A stretch of 64,000 nt of DNA from Salipaludibacillus neizhouensis. GTDB taxonomy: Bacteria; Bacillota; Bacilli; Bacillales; Salisediminibacteriaceae. The DNA lies in the NCBI RefSeq assembly GCF_002886185.1, contig NZ_KZ614146.1:2712930-2776929 (forward strand). Reading direction: 5' to 3'. The translations under genes and the position numbers were made by a program. Under the pieces are notes generated by a model. It ran no database searches. It was not told where the DNA came from and worked only from the letters and a program-made list of their open reading frames with translations. Below are positions 6,481 to 62,713 of this stretch, piece by piece. How positions within the stretch are numbered: the first letter of the stretch is position 1; each line of letters starts with the position of its first letter.

Positions 6481-6567
6481 TAAGAAAAATGCAAAGCGTC
6501 TTTTGTTAAATACAGCGTTATCCTCGCCACCCCGAGTAGCACCTACGAAGTGTAGGTGCTACTCGGG
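6481..6567 (+). repeat. Dispersed palindromic repeat, copy A (5' part only)
   Basis: Begins TAAGAAAAATGC and carries the family's CTTTTGTTAAATACAGCG block, then a hairpin with 16-bp perfect arms (6531-6546 and 6552-6567, CCCGAGTAGCACCTAC and its complement) and a 5-nt loop. After 6567 similarity to other copies ends, so the right half is missing or diverged. Confidence 0.8.
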
Positions 6568-6676
6568 ATAAACACTGAAGCGTTGCCCACGGAAAATGTT
6601 CGCCTAAAGCGAATTTAGGTCTACCTCTTCTCTTGCAAAACATTTATTGTAGAATTCTCTTGGCATCATTTTAGCA

Positions 6677-6720
6677 TAAAAAAGAAGAGTGAAGGGATTG
6701 TTCAACACAACCCTTCACTC
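6677..6720 (-). terminator. Terminator of bmrCD operon
   Basis: A 10-bp perfect stem (GAGTGAAGGG / CCCTTCACTC) with a 14-nt loop. On the minus strand it is followed after CTTC by a run of T, 37 bases past the bmrD stop. Confidence 0.85.
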
Positions 6721-6757
6721 ATCTTATGAAAAATCAGGACGAACTATGACTATGCAT

Positions 6758-8770
6758 TTAACTTGCAGAATCTTTCCTCGTCCCTTTCTGCAGTTGATAC
6801 ATATGGTAGTATTTTCCTTCTCGCTGCATCAACGCATCATGATCTCCTTGTTCAACGATTTCCCCTCTGTTTAATACGAATATTTTATCAGCCTTGCGGA
6901 TAGTGGAAAGTCGGTGAGCAATAACAAAGGTTGTTCTTCCTTCTTTTACGACATCTAAAGCCTGTTGAATTAACTCTTCCGTATCCGTATCTATGTTCGC
7001 AGTTGCTTCATCGAGTATTAATATAGGTGGATCGTAAACTAGTGCTCTTGCAAATGAAATCAGCTGTCGTTGCCCTGCCGATAGCGTACTTCCTTTTTCT
7101 TTCACCTCTTCATCCAATCCATTCGGTAACCCATCTAACATCTCATGGGCACCAACCTTTTCAAGCGCATCCAGAATTCGCTCGCGGGAAATAGAGGCAT
7201 CATTCATACTAACGTTCGTTGCTATCGTGCCGGTAAATAAAAATGGGTCTTGGAGAACGATAGCCATATGCTCTCTTAATTCTTGTTTAGTCATGGAATG
7301 AATATCAATGCCATCAACTTTTATGGTACCTTTTTGATGATCATAAAAGCGAAATAAAATATTCATAATTGAACTTTTTCCTGAGCCTGTATGTCCTACA
7401 AAGGCAAAGGTTTCCCCTCTTTTAGCCGAGAATGAGATATTTTTCAATACATACTCATCTTTTTTGTAAGCAAATGAAACATCTTCAAATTGTACATCTC
7501 CATGAAACCTTGGTCGATGACTTTCTAATAATTCTGTGCCTGGTTCATCCATCAGTTTAAATACTCGTTCGCCGGCAATTCTCGCTTCCTCTAGCTGTGC
7601 CAATTGGTTGACAATACCATTAACCGGTTCAAACAGACGATTAATGTAATCAACAAAAGCATAAACGACTCCAAGACTGATGACCATACCAACTCCTAAT
7701 GATCCCCCTCCGAAATACCAAATAAGTGCAACAAAAGCGATATTTCGAACAAGATTCAGCAAATTAAACGAAGTCATTGCGTTCAAAGAAAGCAGTTTAT
7801 TATTGTACTTGAAATGTTCTTCATTAAGCTTTTCAAATTCAACGGCTACTTCTTTCTCTCTTCCGAAGGCTTGCACAATTGGCATTCCTTGAATGTTTTC
7901 ATTAATTGACCCATTAATTTCACTAATCTTTTCACGAATGACGCGATTGTATTTTCCAGCAAACTTCCGATAAAATATCATCCAAAGTATCAAAATCGGG
8001 ACTATTAAAAGCGTTGCCCAAGCTAAACGAGTGTCTAATAAAAATAACGCAATAAAAATTCCTGTCATATAAATGATACTAGTAAAGAAAGTAGCTAAAA
8101 CACGGACGTAAAGCTCACGAATTGCTTCTGTATCATTTGTCACTCTTGCAACAATTTTACCAGTAGGTTGCTTATCAAAGTATTCGATAGGAAGTTCATG
8201 GATTTTTGCAAACACATCTTCCCGCATTCTTTTAATAATACGATTTGCTGATATTTGTAACCATAGACTCTGATAATAATGAAATATAGCGGAGATAATG
8301 ATTAAAACTAAATATCCCCCCAGAAGCATCATAATGAAAGCTACTTCCTGTTGAAAAAAAAGATATATTTCTTGCTGAGTCATTGGCGTAGCCTCATAAC
8401 TGTTTTGATCCTCGCCCCTCTCAATGGTAAGTACACCATTTTCATATGTTCTTTCCCCATCAAAGGCAATCGCCTCATCAACAAAATAATACGTTAAACC
8501 AATTTGGAGTAGGTTTACTTCCTCGTCCTCTGACCACTTCGTTTCCATTCGGTCACTACGAGTAAATTCTCGGTTGTTATATACTACGTCGCCATCTTCT
8601 TGTTCCACCCAAGGTTGTTCAATTCCCATGATATGTTTGTCAATCATCGTTTTTGCAATAAAAGGTCCTGTTAATTCCGCAGCCGCTGCAATAGATAAAA
8701 ACAGAAGGGCAACTAAAATTGTTCGCTTCGCTTGGAGAGCATAGTTAAAAAGCCTTTTCCCTACGTTCAT
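6758..8770 (-). CDS. bmrD: Multidrug ABC exporter subunit BmrD (YheH)
   Basis: 670-residue half-transporter: six-helix ABC exporter domain (about 1-390) with a large extracytoplasmic insert after helix 1 (about residues 50-130) typical of BmrD, then the nucleotide-binding domain. Walker A GHTGSGKSS, signature TLSAGQRQL, Walker B ILILDEAT with the catalytic glutamate, and the H-loop IAHRLSTI are all canonical. Forms a heterodimer with BmrC, whose own site is degenerate. Start ATG overlaps the bmrC stop by four bases. The gene is under control of the leader at 10561-10930. Confidence 0.92.
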   Translation of the reverse strand: MNVGKRLFNYALQAKRTILVALLFLSIAAAAELTGPFIAKTMIDKHIMGIEQPWVEQEDGDVVYNNREFTRSDRMETKWSEDEEVNLLQIGLTYYFVDEAIAFDGERTYENGVLTIERGEDQNSYEATPMTQQEIYLFFQQEVAFIMMLLGGYLVLIIISAIFHYYQSLWLQISANRIIKRMREDVFAKIHELPIEYFDKQPTGKIVARVTNDTEAIRELYVRVLATFFTSIIYMTGIFIALFLLDTRLAWATLLIVPILILWMIFYRKFAGKYNRVIREKISEINGSINENIQGMPIVQAFGREKEVAVEFEKLNEEHFKYNNKLLSLNAMTSFNLLNLVRNIAFVALIWYFGGGSLGVGMVISLGVVYAFVDYINRLFEPVNGIVNQLAQLEEARIAGERVFKLMDEPGTELLESHRPRFHGDVQFEDVSFAYKKDEYVLKNISFSAKRGETFAFVGHTGSGKSSIMNILFRFYDHQKGTIKVDGIDIHSMTKQELREHMAIVLQDPFLFTGTIATNVSMNDASISRERILDALEKVGAHEMLDGLPNGLDEEVKEKGSTLSAGQRQLISFARALVYDPPILILDEATANIDTDTEELIQQALDVVKEGRTTFVIAHRLSTIRKADKIFVLNRGEIVEQGDHDALMQREGKYYHMYQLQKGTRKDSAS

Positions 8771-14360: not shown

Positions 14361-14438
14361 TAAGAAAAACGGCATAGCCGTCTTTTATTAAATACAGAGC
14401 CAGCTTCCACCGCCATCTTATAAATTCTTAACTTTTAA
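14361..14438 (+). repeat. Dispersed palindromic repeat, copy B (shortened), inside the cyd operon
   Basis: TAAGAAAAACGGCATAGCCG at the left end, the TCTTTTATTAAATACAG block, then a jump to the right-end block ATCTTATAAATTCTTA. The central GTAGCACCTA hairpin is missing, so this copy looks internally deleted. It lies 40 bases after the cydB stop and 15 bases before the cydS start. Confidence 0.8.
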
Positions 14439-15286: not shown

Positions 15287-16151
15287 ACATGTTTCCAAGG
15301 AAATTCATCATCATAAAATTCTTACTGATATAGATTTTGATATAAAAACAGGAAGTATCGTTGGAATAGTTGGCAGGAACGGAGCCGGGAAAACAACTCT
15401 TCTAAGAACCATGGTTGGGATATTAGATCCTTCTTTCGGTGACGTCTTAATAGAAAATGAGAGTATCTTTCGAAATCCTCAATTAAAACAACAAATTATT
15501 TTTGTTCCCGATTCATCTGAAGCACTTAAAAGCTATAGTACCAAAGAAATGATCCACTTGTATAAGCAAATATATCCTAGTTTAGATGAAGACTATTATC
15601 TTCAGTTAATGGAAAGATTCGCTCTGCCAGAAATAAAGAAAATTGGCAATTACTCCAAAGGGATGAAGGCTTTATTTTTCTTAGTAGTTGCTTTTTCAAC
15701 CAAGGCTAAATATATACTGCTTGACGAACCAACTGATGGCTTAGATGTCATTGTCAAAAAACAAGTATTAAAAATCCTTGTTGAAGAAGTAGCCACCAAT
15801 GATGTTTCTGTGATCATTTCATCGCACCGTTTAGATGAACTAGAATTTATTGCAAATGATATTATTATGATTAAAGATGGTATGGTAAACAGTCGATATG
15901 GGTTGGATGAAATGAAAGCCAATTATATAAAAGCACAAGTCGCATTCGAAAGTGACCTGCCAGTTGCCTTAAAGGACCAAGTCACTATTTTAAAACAAAC
16001 AGGGCGCGTCTATATCATTTTAATAGATAAAAATCACGATGAAATAATAAAAAAGATCAAGCTTGCTTCTCCACTATTATTCGAAGATCTACCTTTATCT
16101 TTAGAAGACTTATTCGTAGCAAGGTTAGGTGGTGATGATGATGTTTCATAA
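15276..16151 (+). CDS. ABC transporter ATP-binding protein
   Basis: 291 residues, one ABC ATPase domain: Walker A GRNGAGKTT (about residue 39), signature YSKGMKALFF (a KGM variant of LSGGQ common in this export group), Walker B KYILLDEPTDGLD and H-loop SSHRLDELEF. A C-terminal 70-residue extension is typical of antibiotic/bacitracin or YtrB-like ATPases. Partner of the permease encoded next. The YtrA-type regulator suggests induction by cell-envelope stress, but the substrate is unknown. Confidence 0.9.
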   Translation: MRVKHVSKEIHHHKILTDIDFDIKTGSIVGIVGRNGAGKTTLLRTMVGILDPSFGDVLIENESIFRNPQLKQQIIFVPDSSEALKSYSTKEMIHLYKQIYPSLDEDYYLQLMERFALPEIKKIGNYSKGMKALFFLVVAFSTKAKYILLDEPTDGLDVIVKKQVLKILVEEVATNDVSVIISSHRLDELEFIANDIIMIKDGMVNSRYGLDEMKANYIKAQVAFESDLPVALKDQVTILKQTGRVYIILIDKNHDEIIKKIKLASPLLFEDLPLSLEDLFVARLGGDDDVS

Positions 16152-17151
16152 GGCATTATGGTATCAAAACTATAAACAAACTCGAATGATCATTTGGATG
16201 ACTCTAGCGTTATTTGTTGTTTTTCTTCCCTTTCAATCAACGTTAGCACTTGAAACCTGGAAAGAACTTCAAGAGCAAGCTCAATTAGTAGATGATTCTA
16301 TCTATGAAGTGCAGCAATGGGATGTTTTACAAATATTTTCTGAGGGAGGATTAGCAATATTAGTAACATTATCCATTATCGTTTTGGCAGGAATGCTCGT
16401 TGGCCTTGAAAGAAATACGCGACGCAATGATTTTACATTTTCTTTACCATTTTATCGCAATGATCTTTTCTTGGCGAAGTGGTTTTACGGGGCAATCCTT
16501 ATTTCTCTTTTCCATTCAGTAAATTTTTGGATTGCATATTTTATTATCTATCAATCAGAGTTTGCTTCCGCTTTATACCTAGTCTCGTGGACAGAGATAT
16601 TCTGGGGACCTCTTCTAGGCTTTTTATTTTTCTTTACTTTTTCGTTATTCATCGGAACAATTGCCGGGGAATTAATATCTCAGATAGCCCTAACTATTGT
16701 TTTTGCTATTTTCCCGCTCGGCCTCTTTACATTAATTCAAGGGCTGATAGACGTTCATTTTAAATATTATCTAAACCAGCCCGTCTGGTTAGAATACGTA
16801 ACACCATTTATGTATGTCTTTTCGAACACATCAACTATTGCTACAATTATCACTGCTATCGCTTTTACTGTCTTTTTTCTTTTGCTTGGTACTTTTTTAT
16901 ATAAAAAGAATAAAATTGAACACAATGGAGAATTTCTTATTTTCAAGAGACTAAATCTCCCATTTTTAATCCTGTTTAGCCTTTGCTTTTCATTATTAGG
17001 TGGAATGATTATTTCTTCTTTGGCACCGTGGAATGCAGATGCGCTAAGAATTGTCTCTTATTGGATTGGCTTTACGTTATTCTTATTATTCTCATTGTTA
17101 ATTGCAAGGAGACTGCTAGCGATGAATCTAATGATTAGTAATAAAGCATAA
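16135..17151 (+). CDS. ABC-2 type transporter permease
   Basis: About 338 residues with six or seven hydrophobic helices and an early extracytoplasmic loop (ETWKELQEQAQLVDD). The start is ambiguous: GTG GTG ATG ATG ATG at 16129-16143 are all in frame, and the first ATG is used here. It overlaps the ATPase gene. Its stop codon TAA (17149-17151) is also the first three bases of a dispersed palindromic repeat. Membrane partner of the preceding ATPase; substrate unknown. Confidence 0.8.
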   Translation: MMMFHKALWYQNYKQTRMIIWMTLALFVVFLPFQSTLALETWKELQEQAQLVDDSIYEVQQWDVLQIFSEGGLAILVTLSIIVLAGMLVGLERNTRRNDFTFSLPFYRNDLFLAKWFYGAILISLFHSVNFWIAYFIIYQSEFASALYLVSWTEIFWGPLLGFLFFFTFSLFIGTIAGELISQIALTIVFAIFPLGLFTLIQGLIDVHFKYYLNQPVWLEYVTPFMYVFSNTSTIATIITAIAFTVFFLLLGTFLYKKNKIEHNGEFLIFKRLNLPFLILFSLCFSLLGGMIISSLAPWNADALRIVSYWIGFTLFLLFSLLIARRLLAMNLMISNKA

Positions 17152-17491: not shown

Positions 17492-17530
17492 AGGGGCACT
17501 GGAAAAGTAGATAACTTTTTCTGTGCCCCT
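17492..17530 (-). terminator. Terminator of psuK-psuG
   Basis: Stem AGGGGCAC / GTGCCCCT extended by a second A/T-rich stem (AAAAGT / ACTTTT). On the minus strand the sequence after it is TCGAACTTTTTAG. It starts 12 bases past the psuG stop. Confidence 0.7.
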
Positions 17531-17542: not shown

Positions 17543-18466
17543 TTATTTTTCAATATCATGAAGGGCAACGGCAATTTCCGCCCCTACATGAGCGTTATTC
17601 TCTACTAAAGCAATATTCGTCGTTAACGTTGCGCCCTCACTTAATTCTTTTAAACGATCCAGTAAAAAGGGTGTTGTTTCTTTCCCGCTTATTCCTTTAT
17701 CCTTCGCTTCTTTAAGAGCTTTATCAATAATTTGATCTATCAAAGATTTATCCATTTCTTTATCTTTCGGGACTGGATTTCCAATAACAACTCCGCCATG
17801 GAGGTTTAATTCCCATTTTACGTTTAACATAGCTGCAATATCCTGAGGAGTCTCACCCTTAACATCAACACCAAAGCCACTTTTTTGCGTGTAAAAAGCC
17901 GGGAACTCGTCTGTTTCAAATCCAACAACGGGAACGCCATGTGTTTCTAAATATTCAAGAGTTAAACCAATATCTAATATTGATTTCGCACCTGCACAAA
18001 CAACGGCCACATTTGTTTTGGCTAACTCCTGTAAGTCAGCAGATACATCCATTGTTTCTTCAGCGCCTCTATGTACGCCACCGATTCCTCCGGTTACAAA
18101 GACTTTTATTCCAGCCAATTCTGCACAAATCATCGTTGCCGCTACCGTCGTAGCACCTGCTTTTTTAGAAGCCAAAACAGAGGCAAGATCTCTTCGGCTG
18201 ACTTTTTCTACATCGGTCGCTTTTGCAAAATAAATAAGTTCTTCCTCTGAAAGTCCTATTTTAATTTTCCCATCTAAAATAGCAATCGTAGCTGGCACTG
18301 CTCCTTTATTGCGAATAATTTTTTCAACTTTCTTAGCTGTGTCTACATTCTGAGGGTATGGCATACCGTGAGAGATAATTGTTGATTCAAGAGCAACGAT
18401 TGGTAAGTTTGCTTCTTTAGCTTTTAATACCTCTGCTGAATAGTCAATATATTGTGTGTAGCTCAT
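17543..18466 (-). CDS. psuG: Pseudouridine-5'-phosphate glycosidase PsuG
   Basis: Cleaves pseudouridine 5'-phosphate to uracil and ribose 5-phosphate, second step of pseudouridine catabolism. 307 residues. Family motifs: [16 protein letters not shown] near residue 25, [20 protein letters not shown] (about 125-145) and [19 protein letters not shown]. The reading frame is open 45 codons further, overlapping psuK, but that extension is basic and low-complexity; the ATG at 18466 follows CCAAGGAGG and is the start. Downstream partner of psuK. Confidence 0.95.
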
Positions 18467-18572
18467 GTTATGTTCCTCCTTGGTTTGATGGTTCTTAGTT
18501 TCATTTCGTTTCAATTTATTCTTGGTCGATCGACGTTTTAACGAAAATTTTTTTTTATTGCCTTTGTACCTG

Positions 18573-19658
18573 TTAGAGTACCTCGTTAAAAATGGATTCA
18601 TTTAATCCTTCGGCAACGGTTTCTGTAGTGCTTAACGTTCGCTGTGCCAGCTTCGTACCATTTTCACAAGCAACCTTTAACGTCAGTCCTTTATGAATGC
18701 TGTAAAAGACGCCAGCAGCAAAAGCATCCCCTGCACCCGTAACATCCTCTACATGTGTTTTTAACGCAACAGTCTGTCCTATTGATCCTTCCACCGATTG
18801 AAAATGTGCACCTTTTTCCCCTGCAGTAACAATTATATTCTTCACTCCAAGCTTCACTATCTCATCCATTTTCATTGGAATATCCTTTGATTTCACATGA
18901 GGAACATACCTTTCAATGACTGCGTTTAACTCCTCAATATTTAAAATAAAATAATCGATTTTCGATAAATCGTCCGGTAATCGATTAATTTTTTTGGCGG
19001 ATACTGGCACAACTCCGAGAATTTGCTTGCCTGCATCCTTTTGATGAAATATAGACGATAAAACATCTTTCGGGAAATTCGTGTCAAGAATGATCATATC
19101 AGCTGAACGGAAATGACTAAGAGATTTTTTTACATCAGCTACCGAAACTGCGTCATATATATCCATCTCTGCTAGTGCAAACATCATATTATTTTTTTCA
19201 TTAAGCACCGCAGTATAGTTTCCAGTCCTTTGATCCTGTTTTTGAATCGATGTCGACATATCATAATGTAACGAGTGAGACCATATTTTGTCTCCTTCAG
19301 AATCCGATCCTACTGCAGTATAAAGCAATGTTGGAACTTGAAGTCTGGCAAGATTGTCTGCTATATTTCTGGCTACTCCTCCAATTGTTTCACTGACCAC
19401 TACTGGATTTGAGTCTTCCCATTGGAATTCTGATTGAATTTTTGCCTTACGGTCAATATTCGCTCCACCGACACATAAAACTTGCCGTTCATTATTTAAT
19501 ACATAGGCTCTTCCTTTAATATGGCCATTTTTTGTCAATGACGAAATATAACCAGCTACAGCAGATCGGGATAACTGTAATCTGCTTGCTAAATCTTGTT
19601 GTGAAATATAAGGATTATTTTTAATGAGACCTATAATGTACTCTTCTTTTTCGTTCAT
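18573..19658 (-). CDS. psuK: Pseudouridine kinase PsuK with N-terminal HTH
   Basis: 361 residues. A winged-HTH head (residues 1-55: YIISQQ-type helix [20 protein letters not shown]) is fused to a PfkB-family sugar kinase ([28 protein letters not shown], and the ATP/anion-hole motif [14 protein letters not shown] near 310). It phosphorylates pseudouridine for PsuG. The HTH may let it bind the 13-bp inverted repeat in its own promoter region at 19689-19723. ATG start with AAGGAGGAAGG. About 105 bases separate it from psuG. Confidence 0.9.
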
Positions 19659-22019: not shown

Positions 22020-22295
22020 ATGGATAGTAATCAATTACAGTCAGGTGACACCGTATTTGTCATTCAACGAAATCCTCATACACAATCAGTTGCACATATT
22101 CAAGAAGCATCCATTGTTACCAATCCTTTTCACCCTGGTCATTTAGCTTTGTTTTTCATGGAAGAGTATTATCCTCTAACGGATGATTTAGCCATATACT
22201 CCAGCTACTCAGAAGCCAAAGGGGATTACACGTCTACATTTGGTCCAATGGAATCGGATCTAGACCAATCTCCTATCCAAGAGACTTACGACTGA
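22020..22295 (+). CDS. splA: Transcriptional regulator SplA
   Basis: 91 residues. VFVIQRNPHTQSVAHIQEAS and AIYSSYSEAKGDY match B. subtilis SplA, the small negative regulator of splB. The C-terminal 15 residues extend past the usual length. ATG at 22020 follows AAAGGAGG; an upstream extension of the frame is not supported. Its TGA shares one base with the splB ATG (TGATG), so the two are coupled. Confidence 0.9.
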   Translation: MDSNQLQSGDTVFVIQRNPHTQSVAHIQEASIVTNPFHPGHLALFFMEEYYPLTDDLAIYSSYSEAKGDYTSTFGPMESDLDQSPIQETYD

Positions 22296-23323
22296 TGATC
22301 GCTCCTTTTGTACCTCAACTCGTTTATATGGAGCCACGAGCATTGGAATATCCATTGGGAAAGCAGCTTAACAAAAAATTCACTGATATGGGAATTGAAA
22401 TACGTCAGACTACTTCACACAATCAAGTTCGGAATATACCAGGGAAAAATCATTTTCAGCAATATCGCGTAGCAAAGTCTACCCTTGTAGTAGGCGTAAG
22501 AAAGACATTGAAATTCGATACATCAAAACCTTCTGCAGAATATGCGATTCCACTAGCTACTGGTTGCATGGGCCATTGCCAATATTGCTATTTGCAAACC
22601 ACAATGGGAAGTAAACCTTACATTCGTACCTATGTAAATACCGATGAAATATTTAACGCAGCTGATGAATACATGCAGGAACGTGCCCCTAAGGAAACTA
22701 GGTTCGAGGCAGCGTGTACATCTGATATTGTTGGCATAGATCACTTAACCCACTCTCTAAAAAAAGCTATTGAACATTTTGGAAAGTCGGAACATGGTAA
22801 ACTTCGTTTTGTCACTAAATACCATCATGTAGATCACCTATTAGATGCTGACCACCGAGGCAAAACCCGGTTTAGATTCAGCATTAATGCCGATTATGTT
22901 ATTAAGCATTTTGAACATGGTACTTCCCCTCTGAATGAGCGCATAAATGCGGCTGTAAAAGTGGCTAAGGCCGGCTATCCGTTAGGTTTCATCATCGCTC
23001 CAATATATTTACACGAAGGTTGGGAAAAGGGTTACTATACGATGTTCGAGAAGCTCAACAAAAAACTTCCTCAATCATTAAGACATAATGTCACGTTCGA
23101 ATTAATTCAGCACAGGTTTACAAAACCTGCAAAACGAGTGATTCAAAAAAATTATCCGATGACGAAATTAGAGTTAGATGAAGAAAAAAGAAAATACAAA
23201 TGGGGAAAGTACGGGATAGGTAAATACGTCTATCAAACACAAGAACAAGAGATGATCCAAGAAACATTTCATCGGTATAAAGATGAATTTTTTCCTGAAT
23301 CAAAAATTGAATACTTCACGTAA
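22295..23323 (+). CDS. splB: Spore photoproduct lyase SplB
   Basis: Radical-SAM enzyme that reverses the spore photoproduct (5-thyminyl-5,6-dihydrothymine) during germination. 342 residues. The cluster motif is C91-MGH-C95-QY-C98, and the conserved hydrogen-donor cysteine is C141 in AACTSDIVGIDHL, both at the positions known in B. subtilis. Presence of splAB implies a spore former. The stop codon TAA at 23321-23323 is the first codon of a dispersed palindromic repeat, so the 3' end of the gene abuts the repeat directly. Confidence 0.97.
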   Translation: MIAPFVPQLVYMEPRALEYPLGKQLNKKFTDMGIEIRQTTSHNQVRNIPGKNHFQQYRVAKSTLVVGVRKTLKFDTSKPSAEYAIPLATGCMGHCQYCYLQTTMGSKPYIRTYVNTDEIFNAADEYMQERAPKETRFEAACTSDIVGIDHLTHSLKKAIEHFGKSEHGKLRFVTKYHHVDHLLDADHRGKTRFRFSINADYVIKHFEHGTSPLNERINAAVKVAKAGYPLGFIIAPIYLHEGWEKGYYTMFEKLNKKLPQSLRHNVTFELIQHRFTKPAKRVIQKNYPMTKLELDEEKRKYKWGKYGIGKYVYQTQEQEMIQETFHRYKDEFFPESKIEYFT

Positions 23324-23465
23324 GAAAAACGCGTAGCGCTTTTCTTAAATACAGCGTGATCTTTCGCCACCCCGAGTAGCACCTCTTTAGTACGTGTAGG
23401 TGCTACTCTTTAGTAGTAGGGCGGGGTTCGCTTGATGCGTGTGTCTTAAAGATAGCTAAAAAATA
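23321..23465 (+). repeat. Dispersed palindromic repeat, copy D, starting at the splB stop codon
   Basis: TAAGAAAAACGCGTAGCG, the CTTTTCTTAAATACAGCG block, the 11-bp hairpin GAGTAGCACCT / AGGTGCTACTC (23374-23384, 23398-23408), then the diverged right part CGCTTGATGCGTGTGTCTTA and AAGATAGCT. A further piece of the right end (CTTATCTCATAAAA) may follow near 23507. Confidence 0.82.
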
Positions 23466-23516
23466 CCATACTCCCCTAAAGGAAACATGGTCCGAATCTC
23501 TACTTTCTTATCTCAT

Positions 23517-24448: not shown

Positions 24449-24477
24449 TAAGAAAAACGCAAAGCGTCTTTTATTCT
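24449..24477 (+). repeat. Dispersed palindromic repeat, copy E (left end only)
   Basis: TAAGAAAAACGCAAAGCGTC followed by TTTTATT, identical over 27 bases to the left end of copy F, then unrelated sequence. It lies just upstream of the GNAT start codon, in its 5' region. Confidence 0.75.
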
Positions 24478-26143: not shown

Positions 26144-26298
26144 TAAGAAAAACGCAAAGCGTCTTTTATTAAATACAGCGTGATCTTTAGCCACCCCGAG
26201 TAGCACCTACGTACTGAGTGTAGGTGCTACTCGAAAGGAGGTGGGTTTCCCTTGATACTTGTGGCGTAAAGATAGCTGCCAATTTTATAAATTTTATG
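26144..26298 (+). repeat. Dispersed palindromic repeat, copy F (full form)
   Basis: TAAGAAAAACGCAAAGCGTC, the TTTTATTAAATACAGCGTG block, outer arm ATCTTTAGCCAC, 14-bp hairpin (26197-26210 and 26220-26233), GGGTTTCCCTTGATACTTG block, outer arm GTGGCGTAAAGAT, AGCTGCC and TTATAAATTTTATG. It lies between the convergent 3' side of map and the 5' side of the Pro/Gly-rich gene, upstream of the latter. Confidence 0.9.
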
Positions 26299-26305
26299 AA
26301 AAAAG

Positions 26306-27076: not shown

Positions 27077-27437
27077 ATTCTTCATTTCTCCTTTATTATC
27101 AGTCCTGTAATTTATTCTTTTGTGTCTTGACTCTTCGTTCAATAGTTCTTACGACAAAACAACTAATAACAGAACCTCAATATTCATGTCTTATCTTTAA
27201 TTATTTCTATTGCTAAGGTATTATCATATCAATTAATAAGTTGTCCTTTCAACATATTAAAACATATGCAAAATGAATTGTGGAAAAATCTCTTATATAT
27301 GACATTAACATTTCAATAGGTGACAATCTCTTTTCAAAACATTAAATAGATAGTAAAAGGGTTGTTAGCCCAAATCCAGGCTGATATGATTGGCATCGTT
27401 GTACAAGAAACAACAACAATTTGAAGGAGGGTTTCGA
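27077..27437. other. Intergenic region between divergent map and the 3D-domain gene
   Basis: About 360 AT-rich bases with no coding potential that I can support. It must hold promoters for both genes, but no pair of boxes stands out. No clear WalR-type direct repeat was found upstream of the cell-wall gene. Confidence 0.4.
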
Positions 27438-28493
27438 TTGAAAAGAAATCTAAAAAACCGTTCTTTCCAACGGGTAGGCGTATCAGCAGTAGTATTAGGG
27501 GCTTTGGTGTTCACTACAGACCAAGCTAGTGCTGCAGGTGACACAGAATTCGGCGAAAAGCTACTATATAATGGAAAAACTCATGATCATGTCATCGAAC
27601 TTAAGGAGCTTTTAGAAGAGACCGAGTTTTATGATGGTGAAGTGAATAACAATTTCGATACAGCAACTGAAGAGGCAGTTATTGATTTCCAAGAAAATTA
27701 CGATCTTCTAGTAGATGGATTAACTGGTATTCAAACATACAGTGCACTTATTGGTCTAGAACAAGGAGATAACGGAGATCTGGTTCTCGCTCTTCAAGAA
27801 GATCTAGCTGAATTAGACTATTTTACTGCTGAACTTGACGGTAAATTTGGTCCCTTAACAGAAGAAGCTCTCATTAACTTCCAAGAAGAAGAGGGGGTGC
27901 AAGGCGAAAAGGGTATTGCAGGTCCATATACGTATCAAGCACTTTACCCTTTAACAAGTAGATATAATCCAGAGCTTGCCGCTCCAGCAGAAGAGGCACC
28001 AAGCTCTTCTGAAGAGGAATCTTCTGAGGTTTCAACTAAAGAACCTGCGGAAAGTGTTTCCAGTGAACCTTCTGAGGAATCAACAGAAGAATCTACGGAA
28101 GAAGTTCCTGAGGAATCAACTCAAGAGTCAGCGGAAGCTTCTAACAGCAATAACGCTTCTTCATCCGAAGAAAGCTCAGATTCTAGTAATGATGCTGAAG
28201 GATCAATCACTATGGAAGCAACTGCCTATACGGCTGGTTGTGAAGGATGCAGCGGCATTACAGCAACTGGAATCGACCTAAGAGATCAACCAAACAAAAA
28301 AGTTGTAGCAGTTGATCCTAGTGTAATTCCACTCGGTTCTATTGTGGAAGTAGAAGGATATGGAAGAGCAGTAGCTGGTGACACTGGCGGTGCTATTAAA
28401 GGTAATAAAATTGACCTTCATGTTGCTTCAAAAGATGATGCATTTGCGTTTGGTCGCAAAGATGTTAATGTAACTATCATTGAAACTCCATAA
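27438..28493 (+). CDS. Secreted cell-wall protein: two peptidoglycan-binding domains, Ser/Glu-rich linker, 3D domain (YocH-like)
   Basis: About 351 residues from a TTG start that follows AAGGAGGG; the frame is open upstream but without a ribosome site. Signal peptide (about 1-33, ending DQASAA), two PG_binding_1 repeats (about 42-105: EVNNNFDTATEEAVIDFQ; 106-172: LDGKFGPLTEEALINFQ), then a highly acidic Ser/Glu linker (about 185-265) with repeated EEST motifs. The C-terminal 3D domain has TMEATAYTAGCEG, VAVDPSVIPLGS and AGDTGGAIKGNKIDLHV, which hold the three catalytic aspartates of the Sps/MltA-like lytic fold. Probably a lytic transglycosylase or autolysin. Followed by a terminator. Confidence 0.9.
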   Translation: MKRNLKNRSFQRVGVSAVVLGALVFTTDQASAAGDTEFGEKLLYNGKTHDHVIELKELLEETEFYDGEVNNNFDTATEEAVIDFQENYDLLVDGLTGIQTYSALIGLEQGDNGDLVLALQEDLAELDYFTAELDGKFGPLTEEALINFQEEEGVQGEKGIAGPYTYQALYPLTSRYNPELAAPAEEAPSSSEEESSEVSTKEPAESVSSEPSEESTEESTEEVPEESTQESAEASNSNNASSSEESSDSSNDAEGSITMEATAYTAGCEGCSGITATGIDLRDQPNKKVVAVDPSVIPLGSIVEVEGYGRAVAGDTGGAIKGNKIDLHVASKDDAFAFGRKDVNVTIIETP

Positions 28494-28535: not shown

Positions 28536-28761
28536 TATATTTATAAAATTTTTATTTTTAGAGAGCATATTCCCCTTTCCTACGATGGTGCTCGAATTCG
28601 CTTTAGGCAGACGCTTGTCGGCGACTATCTTTAGCCTAGGATCGCACCCACAGATAAAGCAAGCGGTAATTCTTCCAAACAACCTTCCATGATAACCCCA
28701 CACGCATAAAGAGAAGCTTGCCTTTGATACATAATAGATAGTGGCAAAAGATTAAGCACTA
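28536..28761. other. Non-coding stretch upstream of the decayed peptidase copy
   Basis: No supported gene, hairpin or repeat. It is slightly more GC-rich in 28590-28670 than its surroundings, but no family was recognised. Confidence 0.3.
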
Positions 28762-29410
28762 TTTAAGAAAAGAAGCTACGCGATTTTCTGATTTTATTAT
28801 GATTAATATTTCATAAAGATATCCAATGATTCGATAGCTCTCTTCAAAATCCTCGCTTTATTATTTCACCGCATTAACTTCTATTTTTTGGTAGACGTAT
28901 TTTCTAAAGTATACTATTCTTATTAGAATGAACAAACTTTGAATGAAGTTTCTCCATGTCAAATTTCCACCAAGAAAAATTAAGTTTCAAGATCCTATTT
29001 CTGTTGAGCAATCGTTTAAAGATTTACTTAAAGAAGAGATTGAAACAATCAAAGAAATGGAAACCTGGTTGGAACAGCATTCATAGATCAAAAACTATAT
29101 TGAAGAGGGTCTCACTGATCACTACATAGACTTTCAGTGTCAAAGTGATTCAGAAACAGCAAAAAAATCTTTTGAATATGACCAGAAAATAATTGAACCC
29201 TTAGTTAAAAAATACGAAGCTTTATTGGATGAGAAATTTCTCACTTCTCACTTTATTACCGCGAGTTTTTTTAAAGTGAAATAAATGCAAAAGAGTTATT
29301 CCGAGTAAATAATATTGCATTAGAAATTGAGGAAGATCGTCTTATTACTCATTATTTCGAACACACAGGAAGCCTTACAGTTGATTGGAATGGAAAGGAA
29401 AAAACTCTTA
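28762..29410 (+). repeat. Degenerate direct duplicate of the M3 peptidase locus (copy 1)
   Basis: About 650 bases align with 31999-32670, including roughly 190 bases of upstream region (shared AAGAAAAGAAGCTACG, ATCCAATGATTCGATAGCTC and TTTTTGGTAGACGTATTTTC) and the 5' third of the gene. Similarity stops sharply after AAAACTCTTA at 29410. Confidence 0.92.
28956..29410 (+). pseudogene. Truncated, disabled copy of the M3-family oligoendopeptidase gene
   Basis: Starts ATGTCAAATTTCCACC like the intact gene at 32193. Disabling changes visible by comparison: a one-base deletion near 28985 (TTAAGTTTCAAG for TTAAATTTTCAAG), CAG to TAG at 29084-29086 (CATTCATAGATC for CATTCACAGATC), and a deletion of about 20 bases near 29255-29275. 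The frame ends at the breakpoint 29410, before the zinc motif. The weakened ribosome site (AATGAAG for AAGGAGG) is also decayed. Confidence 0.92.
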
Positions 29411-30109: not shown

Positions 30110-30175
30110 GCAGGATGTCTAAAACAAGAAAACAGACCGTTGATTAGGTGGCTACCCCCAAAAGTTAGAGTTTTT

Positions 30176-31567: not shown

Positions 31568-31624
31568 AAAAACACCCCCGAAAGTTAGATTTTCTACTCT
31601 AACTTTCGGGGGTCGGTATCTAGT

Positions 31625-31909
31625 CTAATTTTGCTTGCTTTTCTGCTTCAGAACGGACACTACTCCCCAAGAAATCACTAATGAGATTACAGGGAAAATA
31701 ATATTCCAAGATGTGTAACTAATTTCGAGTTCGTCATAATAGTGTTTCATATACCAAGTTTCATATAAAAGATTCAATAACAATGTTATCAAAGGTGCAA
31801 CAAATACCTTTTTAGCAAGAATAGATACTAATAGCCCTAATCCAATTACTATAAGCGGAACAATGAACAACTGCATGAGAAAAGGATCTATTGACTCAAT
31901 AAATTCCAT
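31625..31909 (-). CDS. Small membrane protein, DUF2651 (YbeF-like)
   Basis: 94 residues, three hydrophobic segments (FLMQLFIVPLIVIGLGLLVS, APLITLLLNLLY, NIIFPVISLVISWGVVSVL) ending in a basic tail. The KKVFVAPLIT motif after helix 1 is typical of DUF2651. Function unknown. The ATG at 31909 follows GAGGAGG; an upstream in-frame start at 31924 overlaps that site. Right next to the IS end, it starts transcription away from the peptidase gene. Confidence 0.72.
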   Translation of the reverse strand: MEFIESIDPFLMQLFIVPLIVIGLGLLVSILAKKVFVAPLITLLLNLLYETWYMKHYYDELEISYTSWNIIFPVISLVISWGVVSVLKQKSKQN

Positions 31910-31998: not shown

Positions 31999-32670
31999 TT
32001 TAAGAAAAGAAGCTACGTGATTTTCTGATTTTATTATGATAAATAATTCTTAAAGGTATCCAATGATTCGATAGCTCTATTCAAAATCTTTGCTTTATTA
32101 TTTCGCTGCAATAATTTCTATTTTTTGGTAGACGTATTTTCTAAAATCTACTATGCTTATTAGGATGAACATACTTTGAAGGAGGTTTCTCCATGTCAAC
32201 TTTTTACCAAGAAAAATTAAATTTTCAAGATCCAACTTCTGTTGAGCAATCTTATAAAAATTTACTTAATGAAGATATTGAAACAGTGAAAGAAATGGAG
32301 GCCTGGTTGAAACAGCATTCACAGATCCAAAACTATATTGAAGAAGGTCTCACTGGACACTACATAGACTTTCAATGTCAAAGTGATTCAGAAACAGCAA
32401 AAAAAGCTTTTGAATATGACCAGCAAGTAATTGAACCCTTAGTCAAAAAATACGAAGCATTATTGGATGAGAAATTTCTATCTTCTCCAATTAAAAACCA
32501 ACTTGATCCACTGTATTACCGAGAGTTTTTGAAAAGTAAAATGAATGCAAAAGAATTATTTCGAGAAAGTAACATCGCATTAGAAATTGAAGAAGATCGT
32601 CTTACTACTCATTATTTCGAACATACAGGAAGTCTCACAGTTGATTGGAATGGAGAGGAGAAAACTCTTA
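31999..32670 (+). repeat. Direct duplicate (copy 2) covering the promoter region and 5' third of the intact M3 peptidase gene
   Basis: Parent-like copy of 28762-29410. The duplicated upstream region probably holds the promoter (around TTTTTGGTAGACG and TATGCT, 32119-32159). Between the two copies lie the YiaA/B-like gene, the IS3 element and the DUF2651 gene. Confidence 0.9.
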
Positions 32671-33887
32671 GTGAAATCTCAACTTATTTAGAGGATTCTA
32701 ACCGGAAAATACGAAAAAAAGCAATGACGTTGACTGTAGAGGCATTTATTTCTAAAGAAACAGAATTGCAAAACATAATGAGCGATCTAATCGAACTTCG
32801 ACACAGAAAAGCAGAAAATGCCGACCTTCCTAATTATCGCGATTATATGTTCAAAAAGTATGAACGTTTTGATTATACTCCTGAGGATTGCACAAATCTC
32901 GCAGTTGCTATCCAAAAGCATGTAACCCCCTTAAATAAAAGACTTCAACGAGAGCATCAAAAAGAATTGGGAGTTGACGTATATAGACCATGGGATCGAA
33001 AAGGCGTTTCTAATGAACAGAAACCTCTTCAGCCATTTCATAATCGTAATGAACTTGTAGAGAAAACTACACAGATATTTTCAAATTTAGAACCCCGCTT
33101 TGCGGAGTTAATTACTACAATGGATAAACACGGGATGCTTGATTTAACAACTCGGAAGGGAAAATCACCAGGAGGATTCTGTGCACCTCTTCCTGTATCT
33201 GAGCTTTCTTTTATTTTTATGAACGCTTCAAAAACACACGATGATATGACTACGTTGTTGCATGAAATGGGCCACTGTATTCATAATGATTTAACAAAAG
33301 ATCTTCCTCTTAGTAAATACCGTGATACTCCAATGGAATCTGCTGAACTTGCTAGTATGACCATGGAGTTACTAACGATGGATCAATGGCATTTATTTTA
33401 CGATGATCAGGAAGATCTTAGACGAGCAAAAAAAGACCATTTAACTGGGATCGTTGGATTTTTACCATTTGGAATGGTCGTTGATCAATTTCAACATTGG
33501 TTGTATGAGAATCCAAATCATACTCCTGCAGAAAGAAAAATGAAGTTTAAAGAACTTCAGTTCCAAATAGATTCAAGCATTGTTGATTGGACAGGATACG
33601 AGGAATGGTCTGAAATAACGTGGCTTCGAATTCTTCATATTTTTGAAGTCCCATTTTATTTTGTAGAATACGTCATTGCGCAATTAGGTGCTTTGCAAAT
33701 GTATAAACAATATCGAACTAATCCGGAAAAAACGTTAGAAAACTACAAGCAGGCATTATCATTGGGAGCTTCTAAATCTCTGTCGGAAGTTTATAAAGCT
33801 GCCGGTATTCGTTTTGACTTTTCAGAAGAAATGATTAAAAACTTAATGGAGTTTGTAGAAGAAGAATTGGAAGCGTTGAATGACTAA
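32193..33887 (+). CDS. M3-family oligoendopeptidase (PepF-like)
   Basis: 564 residues, cytosolic zinc metallopeptidase that degrades oligopeptides. The zinc motif H357-E-M-G-H361 is in TTLLHEMGHCIHND with the third ligand glutamate in DTPMESAELASM downstream. The start matches the shorter M3B oligoendopeptidase group rather than classical PepF (about 600). RBS GAAGGAGG. A truncated dead copy lies 3.2 kb upstream. Its stop codon TAA (33885-33887) is again the first codon of a dispersed repeat. Confidence 0.93.
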   Translation: MSTFYQEKLNFQDPTSVEQSYKNLLNEDIETVKEMEAWLKQHSQIQNYIEEGLTGHYIDFQCQSDSETAKKAFEYDQQVIEPLVKKYEALLDEKFLSSPIKNQLDPLYYREFLKSKMNAKELFRESNIALEIEEDRLTTHYFEHTGSLTVDWNGEEKTLSEISTYLEDSNRKIRKKAMTLTVEAFISKETELQNIMSDLIELRHRKAENADLPNYRDYMFKKYERFDYTPEDCTNLAVAIQKHVTPLNKRLQREHQKELGVDVYRPWDRKGVSNEQKPLQPFHNRNELVEKTTQIFSNLEPRFAELITTMDKHGMLDLTTRKGKSPGGFCAPLPVSELSFIFMNASKTHDDMTTLLHEMGHCIHNDLTKDLPLSKYRDTPMESAELASMTMELLTMDQWHLFYDDQEDLRRAKKDHLTGIVGFLPFGMVVDQFQHWLYENPNHTPAERKMKFKELQFQIDSSIVDWTGYEEWSEITWLRILHIFEVPFYFVEYVIAQLGALQMYKQYRTNPEKTLENYKQALSLGASKSLSEVYKAAGIRFDFSEEMIKNLMEFVEEELEALND

Positions 33888-33918
33888 GAAAAACGCATAG
33901 CATCTTTTGTTAAATAGC
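33885..33918 (+). repeat. Dispersed palindromic repeat, copy G (left end only), starting at a stop codon
   Basis: TAAGAAAAACGCATAGCATC, then TTTTGTTAAATAGCG, directly fused to the terminator at 33919. Only the first 34 bases of the family are present. Confidence 0.75.
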
Positions 33919-35315: not shown

Positions 35316-35420
35316 ATTTCCATTCCTTTCTTTTGATACCTATTATTCCAATACGTAAATCAATTATTATATGTTTCAAGCATAACAAAAAGAACCTTAA
35401 AGCTATATATAAAGGACTTA

Positions 35421-35553
35421 TAGAGGATGTTCAAAAAGGAAGTTTGTTTTTCCTTTTTGAACATCCTCAAAGCAATGGGCGAAGCTGCTGCATTGCTTAA
35501 GCCTGGTCTGAGTGATTTTTCAGAACAGGCGAGTAGCATGTGTAACCATTGCA
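35421..35553 (+). repeat. MITE-like repeat, left copy (inverted relative to 37102-37262)
   Basis: Opens TATAGAGGATGTTCAAAAAG, with a 17-bp terminator-like hairpin (35423-35468), then AAGCAATGGGCGAAGCTGCT, TTAAGCCTG..CAGAACAGGC and TGTAACCATTGCA. The reverse complement of the right copy matches this over about 130 bases. The far terminal repeat is missing here. The hairpin could terminate transcription in both directions. Confidence 0.85.
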
Positions 35554-35742: not shown

Positions 35743-37007
35743 ATGAAAAAATCTGTATCAAAACCTATTAAGCCCGATTTTTATTATGGTTGGTATATAG
35801 TCATCATTGGTGCCATGAGTTTATTTTTTCTGGACCAGGCCAAACATATTCTAATGCAGTATTTATAGATTATTATATTCTTGACTTTGGCTGGGAACGT
35901 TCGTTAGTATCCGGCATCTACTCCTCGGCAACACTAGCAGCTGGATTTTTATTATTCCTTGTCGGTTCCAGTATTGACAGATTCGGTCAACGAACGGTCT
36001 CGTTAACTGTTAGTATCTTGCTTGCAGCAGCTTGCTTTTGGAATAGTATCGTAGTTAATCCGTGGATGTTATTCATCGGTTTTTTCCTAATTCGGTTACT
36101 CGGTCAAGGTTCTATGACACTTGTTCCAAACACTCTCATCCCACAATGGTTTATTGAAAAAAGAGGCCGTGCATTCAGTATTATGATGCTCGGTGGATTT
36201 TTAAGCTCTACTCTCTTTCCTCCGTTTAATGCTTGGCTGATTACTAGTTTCGGTTGGGAAACTGCTTGGAGAATTTTAGGTGTGCTTATTCTTTTTCTTT
36301 TTGTTCCTGTAGCTTATTTTTTCATGAAAAATAAACCTGAAGAAATCGGGTTATTACCTGATAATAAAAAACCATCTACTGATGAAGAAGAAGAAAAATT
36401 AAAACGTGATTTAGATGTTTCATGGACACTGAAAGAAGCAATGAGAACAAAACAATTTTGGCTGATTTTGCTCTGTGTAGGTATTCCTTCGATGGTTAAC
36501 ACCGGTCTTACTTTCCATCTCATATCTATATTAGGTGGAAGTGGTCTTAGTACAACTGCCGCTGCATTTATTTTAAGTCTCATGGCAATGGTCGGTTTTC
36601 CAGTCACTATGATGGCTGGATTCGTATTAGAAAAAGTAAAAGTTCATTATATGTTTGCTTTTGTTTTCTTTGGCCAATTTATATTTATTATTACCCTGTA
36701 CTTTACAGAGTCATTCATGATGGCAGTAATTTTTGGATTAATATGGGGGTTTGTTGGCGGAATGGAGAGAATAGTCATTTCGGTTATTTTTCCAGATTAT
36801 TTCGGCAGAAGATACATAGGCAGCATCAAAGGAGTAGCAACAACAGTTACAGTATGTGCTTCTGCTTTTGGTCCTTTACCATTCGGAATAGCTTATGATT
36901 TATTTGGCGGATATCAAGAAATTCTACTTTTAACCTTGATTTTTCCTGCTCTCGGCCTCACGGCAAGCCTGCTTTCACCCAAACCTCATAAAAATATTAC
37001 TGCCTAA
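35743..37007 (+). pseudogene. MFS transporter (oxalate/formate-antiporter-like group), frameshifted near the N-terminus
   Basis: The proper start is ATG 35743 behind GAGGAAGG, reading MKKSVSKPIKPDFYYGWYIV. After SLFF the frame runs off at a run of six T (35824-35829). The +1 frame continues SGPGQTYSNAVFIDYYILDF, the family sequence. One missing T therefore splits the gene; the rest (about 395 residues, 11 more helices, motif GQRTVSLTVSILL after helix 2) is intact to 37007. It is either a real mutation, a phase-variable homopolymer, or a sequencing error. Flanked on both sides by inverted copies of a MITE-like repeat. Substrate unknown (a monocarboxylate is typical for the group). Confidence 0.8.
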
Positions 37008-37101: not shown

Positions 37102-37262
37102 TATAGAGTTTGTTCAAAAGGTATGTGCAATGGCTACACACGCTGCATGCCTGTTCTGAGAAAACCGCTCAGAACAGGCTTAAGACAATGCAGCAGCTTC
37201 GCTCATTGCTTAGAGGATGTTCAAAAAGGTAAAAAAACTACCTTTTTGAACATCCTCTATAG
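37102..37262 (-). repeat. MITE-like repeat, right copy (complete, with terminal inverted repeats)
   Basis: 161 bases with ends TATAGAGTTTGTTCAAAAGG (left) and, read inward from the right, TATAGAGGATGTTCAAAAAG: near-identical terminal inverted repeats of about 20 bases. Inside are the GCCTGTTCTGAG / CTCAGAACAGGC hairpin and the strong GAGGATGTTCAAAAAGGTA hairpin at 37213-37258. No ORF inside. Confidence 0.85.
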
Positions 37263-38404: not shown

Positions 38405-38566
38405 GAAGTCTCAAAAGGTCAATAAGAAAAACGGCATAGCCGTCTTTTATTAAATACAGCGTGATCTTTTTAGCCACCCTCACTTAAGTATCAAGGGAAA
38501 CCCACCCTTGATACTTAAGTGAGGGTGGCTGTCATTTTACATTTTCTTATCTAATTTTGAGACTTC
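38405..38566 (+). terminator. pgeF terminator interrupted by a repeat insertion
   Basis: Arms GAAGTCTCAAAA (38405-38416) and TTTTGAGACTTC (38555-38566) are perfect 12-base complements followed by CTTTTATC. The same kind of hairpin, uninterrupted, ends the M3 peptidase gene at 33919-33962. Here the loop holds the 130-base repeat copy H. Confidence 0.65.
38423..38554 (+). repeat. Dispersed palindromic repeat, copy H, with a 26-bp perfect central hairpin
   Basis: Left end TAAGAAAAACGGCATAGCCG, TCTTTTATTAAATACAGCG block, then perfect 26-base arms at 38472-38497 and 38505-38530 (AGCCACCCTCACTTAAG.. and complement) with a 7-base AAACCCA loop. The right end is TTTTCTTATCTAA. The ends TAAGAAAA and TTTTCTTA are themselves inverted repeats. 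Confidence 0.88.
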
Positions 38567-59467: not shown

Positions 59468-59500
59468 ATTAATATCAGATCTCATTTACATCTAGAATCT

Positions 59501-61374: not shown

Positions 61375-61839
61375 TCAGTCACTATTTTCCGATAAAGATA
61401 TGTGCACTTCGATCTTTCCCATTATTGAATCCATCGGGATCGTAATAAATCTTTTGGTAGAGCGGAAATTAGACCTTCCATCATTAACAACTGGCGGCGT
61501 AACATCAACAATAATATTTTCCGCGGAAAGCTCTGTTGCAGTCGCTCCCGCTACCCAATTACCAAACTCTTGGATTGCACTCCAACCCATGTCATCCAAC
61601 GTTTCAATTGCCATTCCTCCCATCATGCTCCCAACGATCTTTTTAGCTGTTTCTGCGTCAAAAGAACAAATAATTTGACCGTTTAGCTCACCATGTACCC
61701 CTAAGACAGCAGATACCTCATTCGAAGCTAGAAATTCTTTAACAACTTGTGGAGATCGGTGTGATATTTCAACCCCAAAATGATTATTCATCATTGTTTT
61801 TGTTGCTTTACATACAGCATTAATATGTTTAGCATTCAT
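61375..61839 (-). CDS. CheX-family chemotaxis protein (phosphatase-like)
   Basis: 154 residues. The E-x-x-N phosphatase motif is seen in WSAIQEFGNWVAGATATELS, with the helical lead ICSFDAETAKKIVGSMMGGM and the closing FRSTKRFITIPMDSIMGKIE. CheX proteins dephosphorylate CheY-P or form part of chemotaxis adaptors. No other che gene is nearby. RBS AAAGGTG. Confidence 0.88.
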   Translation of the reverse strand: MNAKHINAVCKATKTMMNNHFGVEISHRSPQVVKEFLASNEVSAVLGVHGELNGQIICSFDAETAKKIVGSMMGGMAIETLDDMGWSAIQEFGNWVAGATATELSAENIIVDVTPPVVNDGRSNFRSTKRFITIPMDSIMGKIEVHISLSENSD

Positions 61840-61885
61840 ATTTTCTCAACACCTTTACATCACATTTTAATTAAAGCTAAATAAA

Positions 61886-62560
61886 TCACATTGCTCTAGC
61901 CTCTTGCCATTGTTCCCTTGCTTTTTCAACGATAGCTGCTTCTTTTTGCTTATCTTTGTGTTGAATGACTTTTGAGAAATAGTTAATTGATTGTTCTTTC
62001 TTTCCTACTTTACGATAGTATTCTCCGAGCAAAAATAACAACATTAACTCGCTTACACTCTTTTGTATAAAATCGCCATGCTTATAGGAATCTTCGAATT
62101 GTTCTAACGCCATTTCAATAAACCTGATTTCCTCTTGTTTTTCGTTCATAGTTCGAAATAACCAACTTAGCTTCATACACAAGCTTCCTCGAACGATATA
62201 TGGTTGATTCGTTATTTCAGCTGAAAGTATAGCTAATTTATATGTTTTTACGGAATTTTCATAACTTCTAGTACCAGAGAAATCTTGGCTTGTCCAATAT
62301 TTAGATACCTTCTGATTGAATTGCTCCTTTATACTAGGTTTAAGTATAGGATCAAATTGTTCATTAAAGCCATAACCACAAGCTGAACATACACTTATCT
62401 CATATAAAACCGGATTTAATTGCTCATCCTTATAATCTTTAGAGTAATCATTAAATACCTCATTCACTCTTATAAATCTAGAACGGATCTTTTTTGAATA
62501 AAAGGCAAGGTTGCAATTTGGACACGTAACTTCTTTATCATACAACGGTTCTAGATCCAT
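61886..62560 (-). CDS. DUF2225 family protein
   Basis: 224 residues. An N-terminal zinc-binding pair of CxxC motifs (VTCPNCNLAF and SVCSACGYGF) is followed by a TPR-like helical region (KTYKLAILSAEI, LMLLFLLGEYYRKVGKKEQS, INYFSKVIQHK). The family is widespread in Firmicutes; function unknown. RBS GGGAGG. On the same strand as cheX, 46 bases apart. Confidence 0.85.
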   Translation of the reverse strand: MDLEPLYDKEVTCPNCNLAFYSKKIRSRFIRVNEVFNDYSKDYKDEQLNPVLYEISVCSACGYGFNEQFDPILKPSIKEQFNQKVSKYWTSQDFSGTRSYENSVKTYKLAILSAEITNQPYIVRGSLCMKLSWLFRTMNEKQEEIRFIEMALEQFEDSYKHGDFIQKSVSELMLLFLLGEYYRKVGKKEQSINYFSKVIQHKDKQKEAAIVEKAREQWQEARAM

Positions 62561-62683
62561 ATGCTCATTAAACCTCCCTCAATAGTACTTACTGTCTTTA
62601 TATAGTATAAAAGACCTTAGTCTAAGAAGGAAGGAATTTTTTCTAATTCACTATAATGAATTAGATATACCTAGTAAACCATA

Positions 62684-62713
62684 TGAAAAGCGCATAGCGT
62701 CTATTATTAAATT
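62684..62713 (+). repeat. Dispersed palindromic repeat, copy I (degenerate left end)
   Basis: GAAAAGCGCATAGCGTCTAT then TATTAAATTT, close to the family left end GAAAAACGCATAGCGTCTTT. No hairpin centre. Confidence 0.5.

Follow-up and report, generated by a model that had tools for sequence, protein, structure and literature searches.

Here we describe a short, gene-less repeat element that is present in hundreds of whole or broken copies in the genome of Salipaludibacillus neizhouensis, and that shows a strong preference for one site, directly 3' of the T-tract of an intrinsic terminator and in the same direction as that terminator. Ten copies had been listed, as a dispersed palindromic repeat family built from modules, in an original prediction made from the sequence of a 64,000-nucleotide stretch alone (hereafter the window; contig NZ_KZ614146.1, positions 2,712,930 to 2,776,929). 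The element keeps its fold while its stem sequences change, and it is oriented with replication. We suggest, with about even confidence, that it is non-autonomous and that an enzyme of the IS200/RAYT type (Y1) moves it in trans, in the form of single-stranded DNA on the lagging-strand template, and deposits it behind terminators.

The genome (G000; 5,511,086 bases, 11 contigs) was searched whole. A 23-mer of the left end, allowing up to three mismatches, matched 233 times (114 forward, 119 reverse), while the reversed control pattern matched 0 and 0 times; the predicted family is thus real and extends far beyond ten copies. A longer left-end pattern was found three times in the window against 0.00 expected, and a BLAST-type search with copy F as the query returned 349 candidates, of which 40 were scored. 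In a sample of 87 segments (1,765,456 bases, 32% of the genome, comprising spaced pieces of the larger contigs, the window and all of contig C4), nhmmer identified left ends at 107 places and right ends at 75, with 68 pairs among them. The remaining 39 left-only and 7 right-only copies indicate that the 5' part is absent more often than the 3' part. The searches yielded hundreds of copies with a common order of parts, and not the ten lone copies or disordered, unrelated terminators that the original prediction had named as evidence against itself. The nearest relative of a copy is typically well diverged (median identity 0.83, maximum 0.97, middle half about 70–89%; alignment A4, with 79 rows of 110 nt or more and gaps scored as differences), from which many copies appear to be old rather than recent; the maximum of 1.0 in alignment A5, where three copies are present twice, may be an artefact.

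As first described, the element reads TAAGAAAAACGGCATAGCCGTCTTTTATTAAATACAGCG, an arm, the core, a second arm and TTATAAATTCTTATCT. We prefer the opposite polarity to that of the original prediction, because neighbours and targets make more sense on the opposite strand. There it reads, 5' to 3', AGATAAGAATTTATAA, a long imperfect hairpin (H1), TATTTAATAAAA, a small hairpin (H2, GACGGCTATGCCGT) and TTTTTCTTA, so that in short form the ends are 5' AGATAAGAA and 3' TTTTTCTTA. Its size is about 130 nt with a short core, in which H1 closes in a TATCAAGGG..CCCTTGATA hairpin, or about 160 nt with a long core, in which a GAGTAGCACCTAC hairpin takes the place of one arm; a further form, exemplified by copy B, retains both ends with the interior deleted. 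The constant ends and swapped cores proposed for the window are also found beyond it, and, as had been stated, the element contains no open reading frame (ORF). A perfect H2 stem of 4 or 5 pairs is present at 78 of the 107 left ends and absent, by the same test, from 29. H2 with its T-tract makes a terminator-like end that resembles the element's own target.

The consensus structure was set by hand, as 4-bp and 5-bp H2 stems misalign and hide the small hairpin from an automatic consensus fold. In an alignment of 88 model hits, 25 of the 29 pairs have changes on both sides, amounting to 146 both-side-change cells against 43.0 (sd 10.4) in shuffles, none of 500 of which reached 146, and against 16 to 37 in slid controls. 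In a set of 45 distinct rows dominated by G025, a species of another genus, such changes affect 20 of the 29 pairs and total 46 cells, where shuffles give 9.2 (sd 2.7). Both alignments are model-fitted, hence biased toward the model, and kinship of the copies inflates the counts; we take the fold as conserved because the gap to shuffles and slides is large. Stem sequences change while the fold is kept, with compensatory changes supporting it, and it is the fold rather than the stem sequence that is conserved across two families of bacteria: copies in G010 and G084 have the same architecture and mostly the TTTTTCTTA end, with very different stem sequences, and those read by eye in G025 and G008 are of the short-core type with different letters. 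The long-core hairpin (GTAGCACCTAC / GTAGGTGCTAC) is itself a palindrome, arrayed at the site of copy D in two congeners (G002 and G003). The long core may derive from a short element that acquired this palindrome, which is like the repetitive extragenic palindromic (REP) sequences of other bacteria, and then multiplied. A lone related REP-like palindrome of the GTAGCACCTAC type occurs at window 408-439.

The target was assessed on 35 of the 68 paired copies, namely those in which a motif fixed the position of the end; the motif is slightly off in at least two of them. By a strict test, a hairpin with a T-tract adjoins the 5' end in 19 of the 35. The same test was passed by 1 of 35 windows beyond the 3' end, by 116 of about 3000 intergenic positions chosen at random and by 62 of 3000 random positions overall. 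When the test was relaxed and applied to model hits whose flank was long enough, terminators were found at 32 of 82 copies in G000 and 20 of 45 in other genomes (control, 199 of 3000). The flank is A-rich, with A at positions 4 to 8 in 28, 32, 24, 26 and 29 of the 35 copies, and the bases of the 5' junction vary among copies. Gene context could be assigned to 106 of the 107 left ends by simple ORF calls without annotation. A same-direction gene precedes 47 of these copies, and in 14 (including C1, D and G) the stop codon of the adjoining gene is formed by the element's first three bases, read on the strand first described. The site of D could be extracted from three congeners; these lack the element, and their orthologous gene stops at the same position. 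With regard to the terminal inverted repeats and fixed-length target duplication of a classical DDE-type miniature inverted-repeat transposable element (MITE), the two ends share only a short TAAGAA-type match and no common duplication was evident in the 35 flanks; no target duplication was seen across the locus L002.

Could these be separate terminators and fixed regulatory RNAs, alike by resemblance and not mobile at all? The terminator-like H2 end, the conserved fold and the frequent nearest-copy identities of only about 70–89% would suit this explanation, which we nevertheless consider highly improbable. Homology spans the whole length of 130–160 nt, and 233 left ends against none in the control contrast with their absence from seven congeners, in which neither pattern nor model found a match although gene order is largely kept around the window. 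Fourteen 20-kb congener stretches from the syntenic place gave no match up to E 1 (expectation value); aligned identity to the congeners is only about 64–77%, so the insertion junction cannot be placed there. Copy H sits inside a terminator-like hairpin (GAAGTCTCAAAA..TTTTGAGACTTC) and splits it. Copies also stack end to end: besides C1 and C2, the sample contains six or more close pairs, and G025 and G010 have others. A clean tandem joint has the TTTTTCTTA-type end of one copy, then a short run of variable bases and the AGATAAG-like start of the next copy; some joints are degenerate.

By regional GC skew, the element strand runs along leading-strand synthesis, i.e. lies on the lagging-strand template, in 92 of 102 copies, four ambiguous ones having been set aside; with gene-strand majority as the measure, 86 of 98 agree. 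Tandem copies are counted singly in these figures and are not all independent. Agreement with skew was 27/35 at convergent, 13/13 at divergent and 3/3 at other sites; between tandem genes it was 39/41 for copies parallel to both genes and 10/10 for copies opposed to both, which indicates that polarity follows replication and not transcription. In G025, orientation flips at about 0.8 and 3.0 Mb along a contig of 4.46 Mb, close to the sign changes of the skew. By the nearest skew sample, 45 of 52 listed copies agree there, and five of the seven misses lie in two unsampled intervals of sign change.

Beyond its own genome the element is sporadic. The left-end pattern matched four of 100 genomes, its own included; inspection by eye upheld the matches in G025 (three places) and G008 (one) and rejected the one in G075. 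The covariance model matched five of 35 genomes of the family: at least 97 times in G000 and at least 95 in G025 (lower bounds both, 97 candidates having been scored in each), nine times in G010, twice in G008 and once in G032. An order-wide search of 397 genomes, which was insensitive with eight candidates scored per genome, matched G000, G010 and G084. Plasmids and phages yielded no match, nor did exact-pattern scans of named genomes, a set from which near records may be absent. Such a patchy spread fits what a mobile element might be expected to leave.

A second, larger repeat family (core GGCGACTCCTGCGGG..; e.g. L104:1027-1202) gave 48 hits in the sample. The polarity of 37 of 47 hits follows replication and that of 10 does not, one further hit being ambiguous. 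Several copies read have the element's right end next to a terminator, and together these observations support the idea that one machinery may read the ends of both families.

Movement in trans, which the original prediction had assigned to a RAYT/TnpA-like or other transposase, is the natural inference for such an element; movement as such was not seen. In the mechanism that we favour, a hairpin-recognising Y1 (HUH) enzyme of the IS200 or RAYT type, acting in trans, would cut out the element and insert it in single-stranded form on the lagging-strand template, leaving the target unduplicated. Insertion just after a terminator, in some cases at a stop codon whose place is taken by the TAA of the element, would spare the host, and the element would serve as an extra terminator. 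An enzyme of this type fits the hairpin ends and the insertion mode of IS200 in relatives: all ten IS200-type copies of relatives read by eye start directly after a terminator T-tract (three of four in G006, L142, L150 and L157; three of four in G084, L279-L281; L143 in G008; L144 in G003; L263 in G023; and the relic L155 in G000), a count that omits L282 of G084, a broken copy in G003, one in G006, and loci that look IS605- or RAYT-type. In G006 and G084, where the IS200 right end was mapped, it has the form hairpin-TTTTGATT, which is comparable to the element's hairpin-TTTTTCTTA. A limited literature search revealed no evident published report of IS200 insertion behind terminators.

A number of observations weigh against this mechanism. 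The terminator preference, by the test used, is strong but not universal, 16 of 35 copies failing the strict and 50 of 82 the relaxed test; copies that are old, or that follow the short stem of another element, would not pass it. Copy H is flanked on each side by the two bases AA. A search with 35 joined-flank queries revealed no precise empty site, the seven spanning hits being tandem neighbours or related copies, so we infer rather than observe both mobility and the lack of a target duplication; and the divergence of most copies means that the family may be inactive now. As to the enzyme, Y1 (PF01797) proteins, sorted by length and score alone, are RAYT-like in G000, G025 and G010, the three genomes with most model hits, which lack an intact IS200-type TnpA (G000 has broken IS200 pieces besides), and IS200-type only, with no RAYT, in G084; thus no single Y1 class tracks the elements. 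Congeners that lack the element have RAYT-like proteins as well. No enzyme is tied to the element's ends, and the transposase gene flanked by the same ends that the original prediction proposed looking for was not among the loci examined: none of the 40 Y1 and reverse transcriptase loci fetched (not every Y1 gene) matched the ends at E<=1, 20 further Y1 loci gave nothing better than E 0.24, and the ends were not seen by eye in the IS200 ends read. Two of three RAYT-type places examined in G000 had no significant match within about 2.5 kb; the third (L147, C2:1164214-1167543), with a 267-aa gene, has a degenerate second-family end just downstream. An autonomous copy was also sought as a right end with no near left end, a motif that is weak (71 hits against 40 for its reverse). 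Two of 25 motif hits with an A-tract were orphans, neither of which has a left end within 5 kb.

Group II introns insert at the same kind of site, and the reverse transcriptase of a group IIC intron might move the element as a bacterial analogue of a short interspersed nuclear element, copying an H2-ended RNA behind terminators on the lagging-strand template. According to the portion of PMC8919778 available, group IIC introns insert just after terminators with a lagging-strand bias. Group II introns with a 474-aa protein are present in G000 (L161, L171, L167; class not typed here), and both copies with a readable 5' junction start directly after a terminator. Because these introns use the same targets and no transposase with the element's ends was found, the mobiliser is unproven; an insertion mode common to two unrelated machineries means that the element could belong to either or neither. 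The excess of left-only over right-only copies, with a few truncations abutting a T-tract, would also suit such copying, yet retrotransposition with 5' truncation was not adopted, as the truncations are mixed: of 106 copies, 45 stop short of the right end, and of these a few join a T-tract, about ten retain both ends and others enter another repeat, at least four being cut by a segment edge or misaligned and most, by eye, not abutting a terminator. Moreover, RVT_1 matches are found in G000 (9), G008 (11), G010 (11), G084 (9) and G032 (1), but not in G025, despite its many model matches. The element has no group II match in Rfam, its one weak listing being an archaeal sRNA family at E 0.1, below the cut-off, whereas introns elsewhere in G000 do match group II. 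We therefore regard the reverse transcriptase as an improbable mobiliser, and put the Y1 enzyme at about one half because G025 has no reverse transcriptase match and the element has two-hairpin anatomy.

A dedicated enzyme of another class, a site-specific recombinase or an unknown transposase, might instead read the folded ends, as an integron integrase reads attC. Conservation of fold and not stem sequence across two bacterial families, the variable bases of the 5' junction and tandem arrays that present a new site at each end would agree with this, while no such gene was found next to the element, though recombinase families were not surveyed; we think it possible but rather unlikely. Somewhat more broadly, and still tentatively, the element may represent a distinct class of bacterial parasite defined by its fold and not its sequence, which would land at terminator hairpins exposed on the lagging-strand template and end in a replica of its site, so that it stacks and presents further sites for landing, with a dedicated, as yet unrecognised enzyme that would also move the second family.

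The copies in the window are given below. All ten coordinates first noted bear the common left end, degenerate in some, and the whole-element covariance model recovers seven at E <= 0.001, in a search of which four of the 90 sources belong to G025 and not G000; three proved to be left-end remnants, and an eleventh, degenerate copy had been overlooked, which runs against the usual polarity and is one of the ten exceptions to it. The first description of the C1 duplication and of the perfect H hairpin is exact.

Copies of the element and associated features in the window (coordinates are window positions; strand is that of the element as preferred here).
Feature	Position	Strand	Description
Copy A	6481..6599	-	Long-core form, 5' (window-right) end degenerate; model E 3.1e-4
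Copy B	14361..14433	-	Interior deleted, both ends retained; model E 5.1e-8
Copy C1	17149..17306	-	Short core with exact 29-nt tandem duplication; in tandem with C2; model hit
TAA of copy C1	17149-17151		Stop codon of ORF 16129-17151
Copy C2	17309..17469	-	Full long-core copy; C1 lies directly behind its terminator-like end; model hit
Hairpin GGGGCACTG..CTGTGCCCC	17493..17529	-	Likely terminator of convergent ORF 17543-18601, beside the C1/C2 array; hand-counted coordinates
Copy D	23321..23479	-	Long core, changed near 5' end; model hit
TAA of copy D			Stop codon of spore photoproduct lyase ORF 22295-23323
Remnant E	24449..24475	-	Left end alone; left-end profile E 4e-5
Copy F	26144..26300	-	Full long-core copy; model hit
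Degenerate copy	28698..28792	+	Overlooked at first; inverted repeat; left-end profile E 8e-6
Remnant G	33885..33916	-	Left end alone; left-end profile E 2e-5
TAA of remnant G			Stop codon of ORF 32193-33887 (M3 oligoendopeptidase family)
Left half of hairpin split by H (GAAGTCTCAAAA)	38405..38422	.	Terminator-like; by sequence
Copy H	38423..38552	-	Short-core variant, exact 26-bp perfect inner hairpin; model hit
Right half of hairpin split by H (TTTTGAGACTTC)	38553..38566	.	By sequence
Remnant I	62684..62714	-	Left-end-like, then a piece related to the second repeat family; left-end profile E 6e-3

Other repeats occur nearby. A repeated stretch at 28762-29410 and 31999-32670 overlaps the start of the M3 peptidase ORF, and between its two parts lie two short ORFs and inverted ends (30142-30171, 31596-31625), perhaps of an insertion sequence. 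Long inverted repeats (35419-35553 and 37126-37261, one of 52 nt at 92%) surround an MFS transporter ORF (35790-37007), and imperfect 36-nt repeats lie within ORF 27390-28493 (28017-28136).

Among known systems, the ends-only elements of the IS200/IS605 family (PATEs) resemble the element in having no ORF, hairpins near both ends (here H1 and H2, with compensatory changes) and an expected mobilisation in trans. A further likeness is the lagging-strand polarity seen in both G000 and G025: such a bias is reported for the IS200/IS605 family, though the species studied showed no strand preference (10/22), in the accessible text of PMC7290912. The differences are that no parent insertion sequence with the element's ends was found, that H1 is long and imperfect, and that copies number in the hundreds. 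REPs and REPINs, mobilised by RAYTs (REP-associated tyrosine transposases), are likewise hairpin-based, intergenic, in high copy and moved in trans; RAYT-like genes are present here, and the long core has a GTAG-containing palindrome as in the G002 and G003 arrays. The element's ends, however, lack a GTAG or CGTC tag at the foot of the hairpin, which REPs have as far as PMC3733652 was available, and the three RAYT-type places examined in G000 are not flanked by it. Group IIC introns share its insertion directly after terminators and its lagging-strand bias, and differ in that the element has no ribozyme, no ORF and other ends.

Efar repeats of Enterococcus faecalis are modular, lie near stop codons and are terminator-like. 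By description, bcr1 of the Bacillus cereus group is similar in its 147-167 bp (PMC2267715, in part) and in being MITE-like and often in untranslated regions (PMC3446304, in part), while the parts of PMC6542083 available link a TTTAT motif to the mobility of the bcr repeats. BOX of Streptococcus pneumoniae is modular, with a variable number of inner units, and SPRITE of the same species is terminator-like and most enriched downstream of genes; in the sections of PMC3049150 available, neither replication-strand polarity nor a precise terminator target is seen for them. A MITE review (PMC10969869, in part) was also consulted. No paper evidently reporting the present finding emerged from a limited literature search combining IS200, repeats, terminators and strand bias, which is not proof of absence.

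Small repeats near stop codons and terminators are known in several Gram-positive bacteria. Here the copies themselves reveal the target (the terminator T-tract), the polarity (that of replication) and the feature likely to be recognised (the fold, with stem sequence free), so that the mobiliser becomes testable. The findings also suggest that IS200s and group II introns converge with these elements on one landing site, and that mobile DNA remodels transcription units at their ends.

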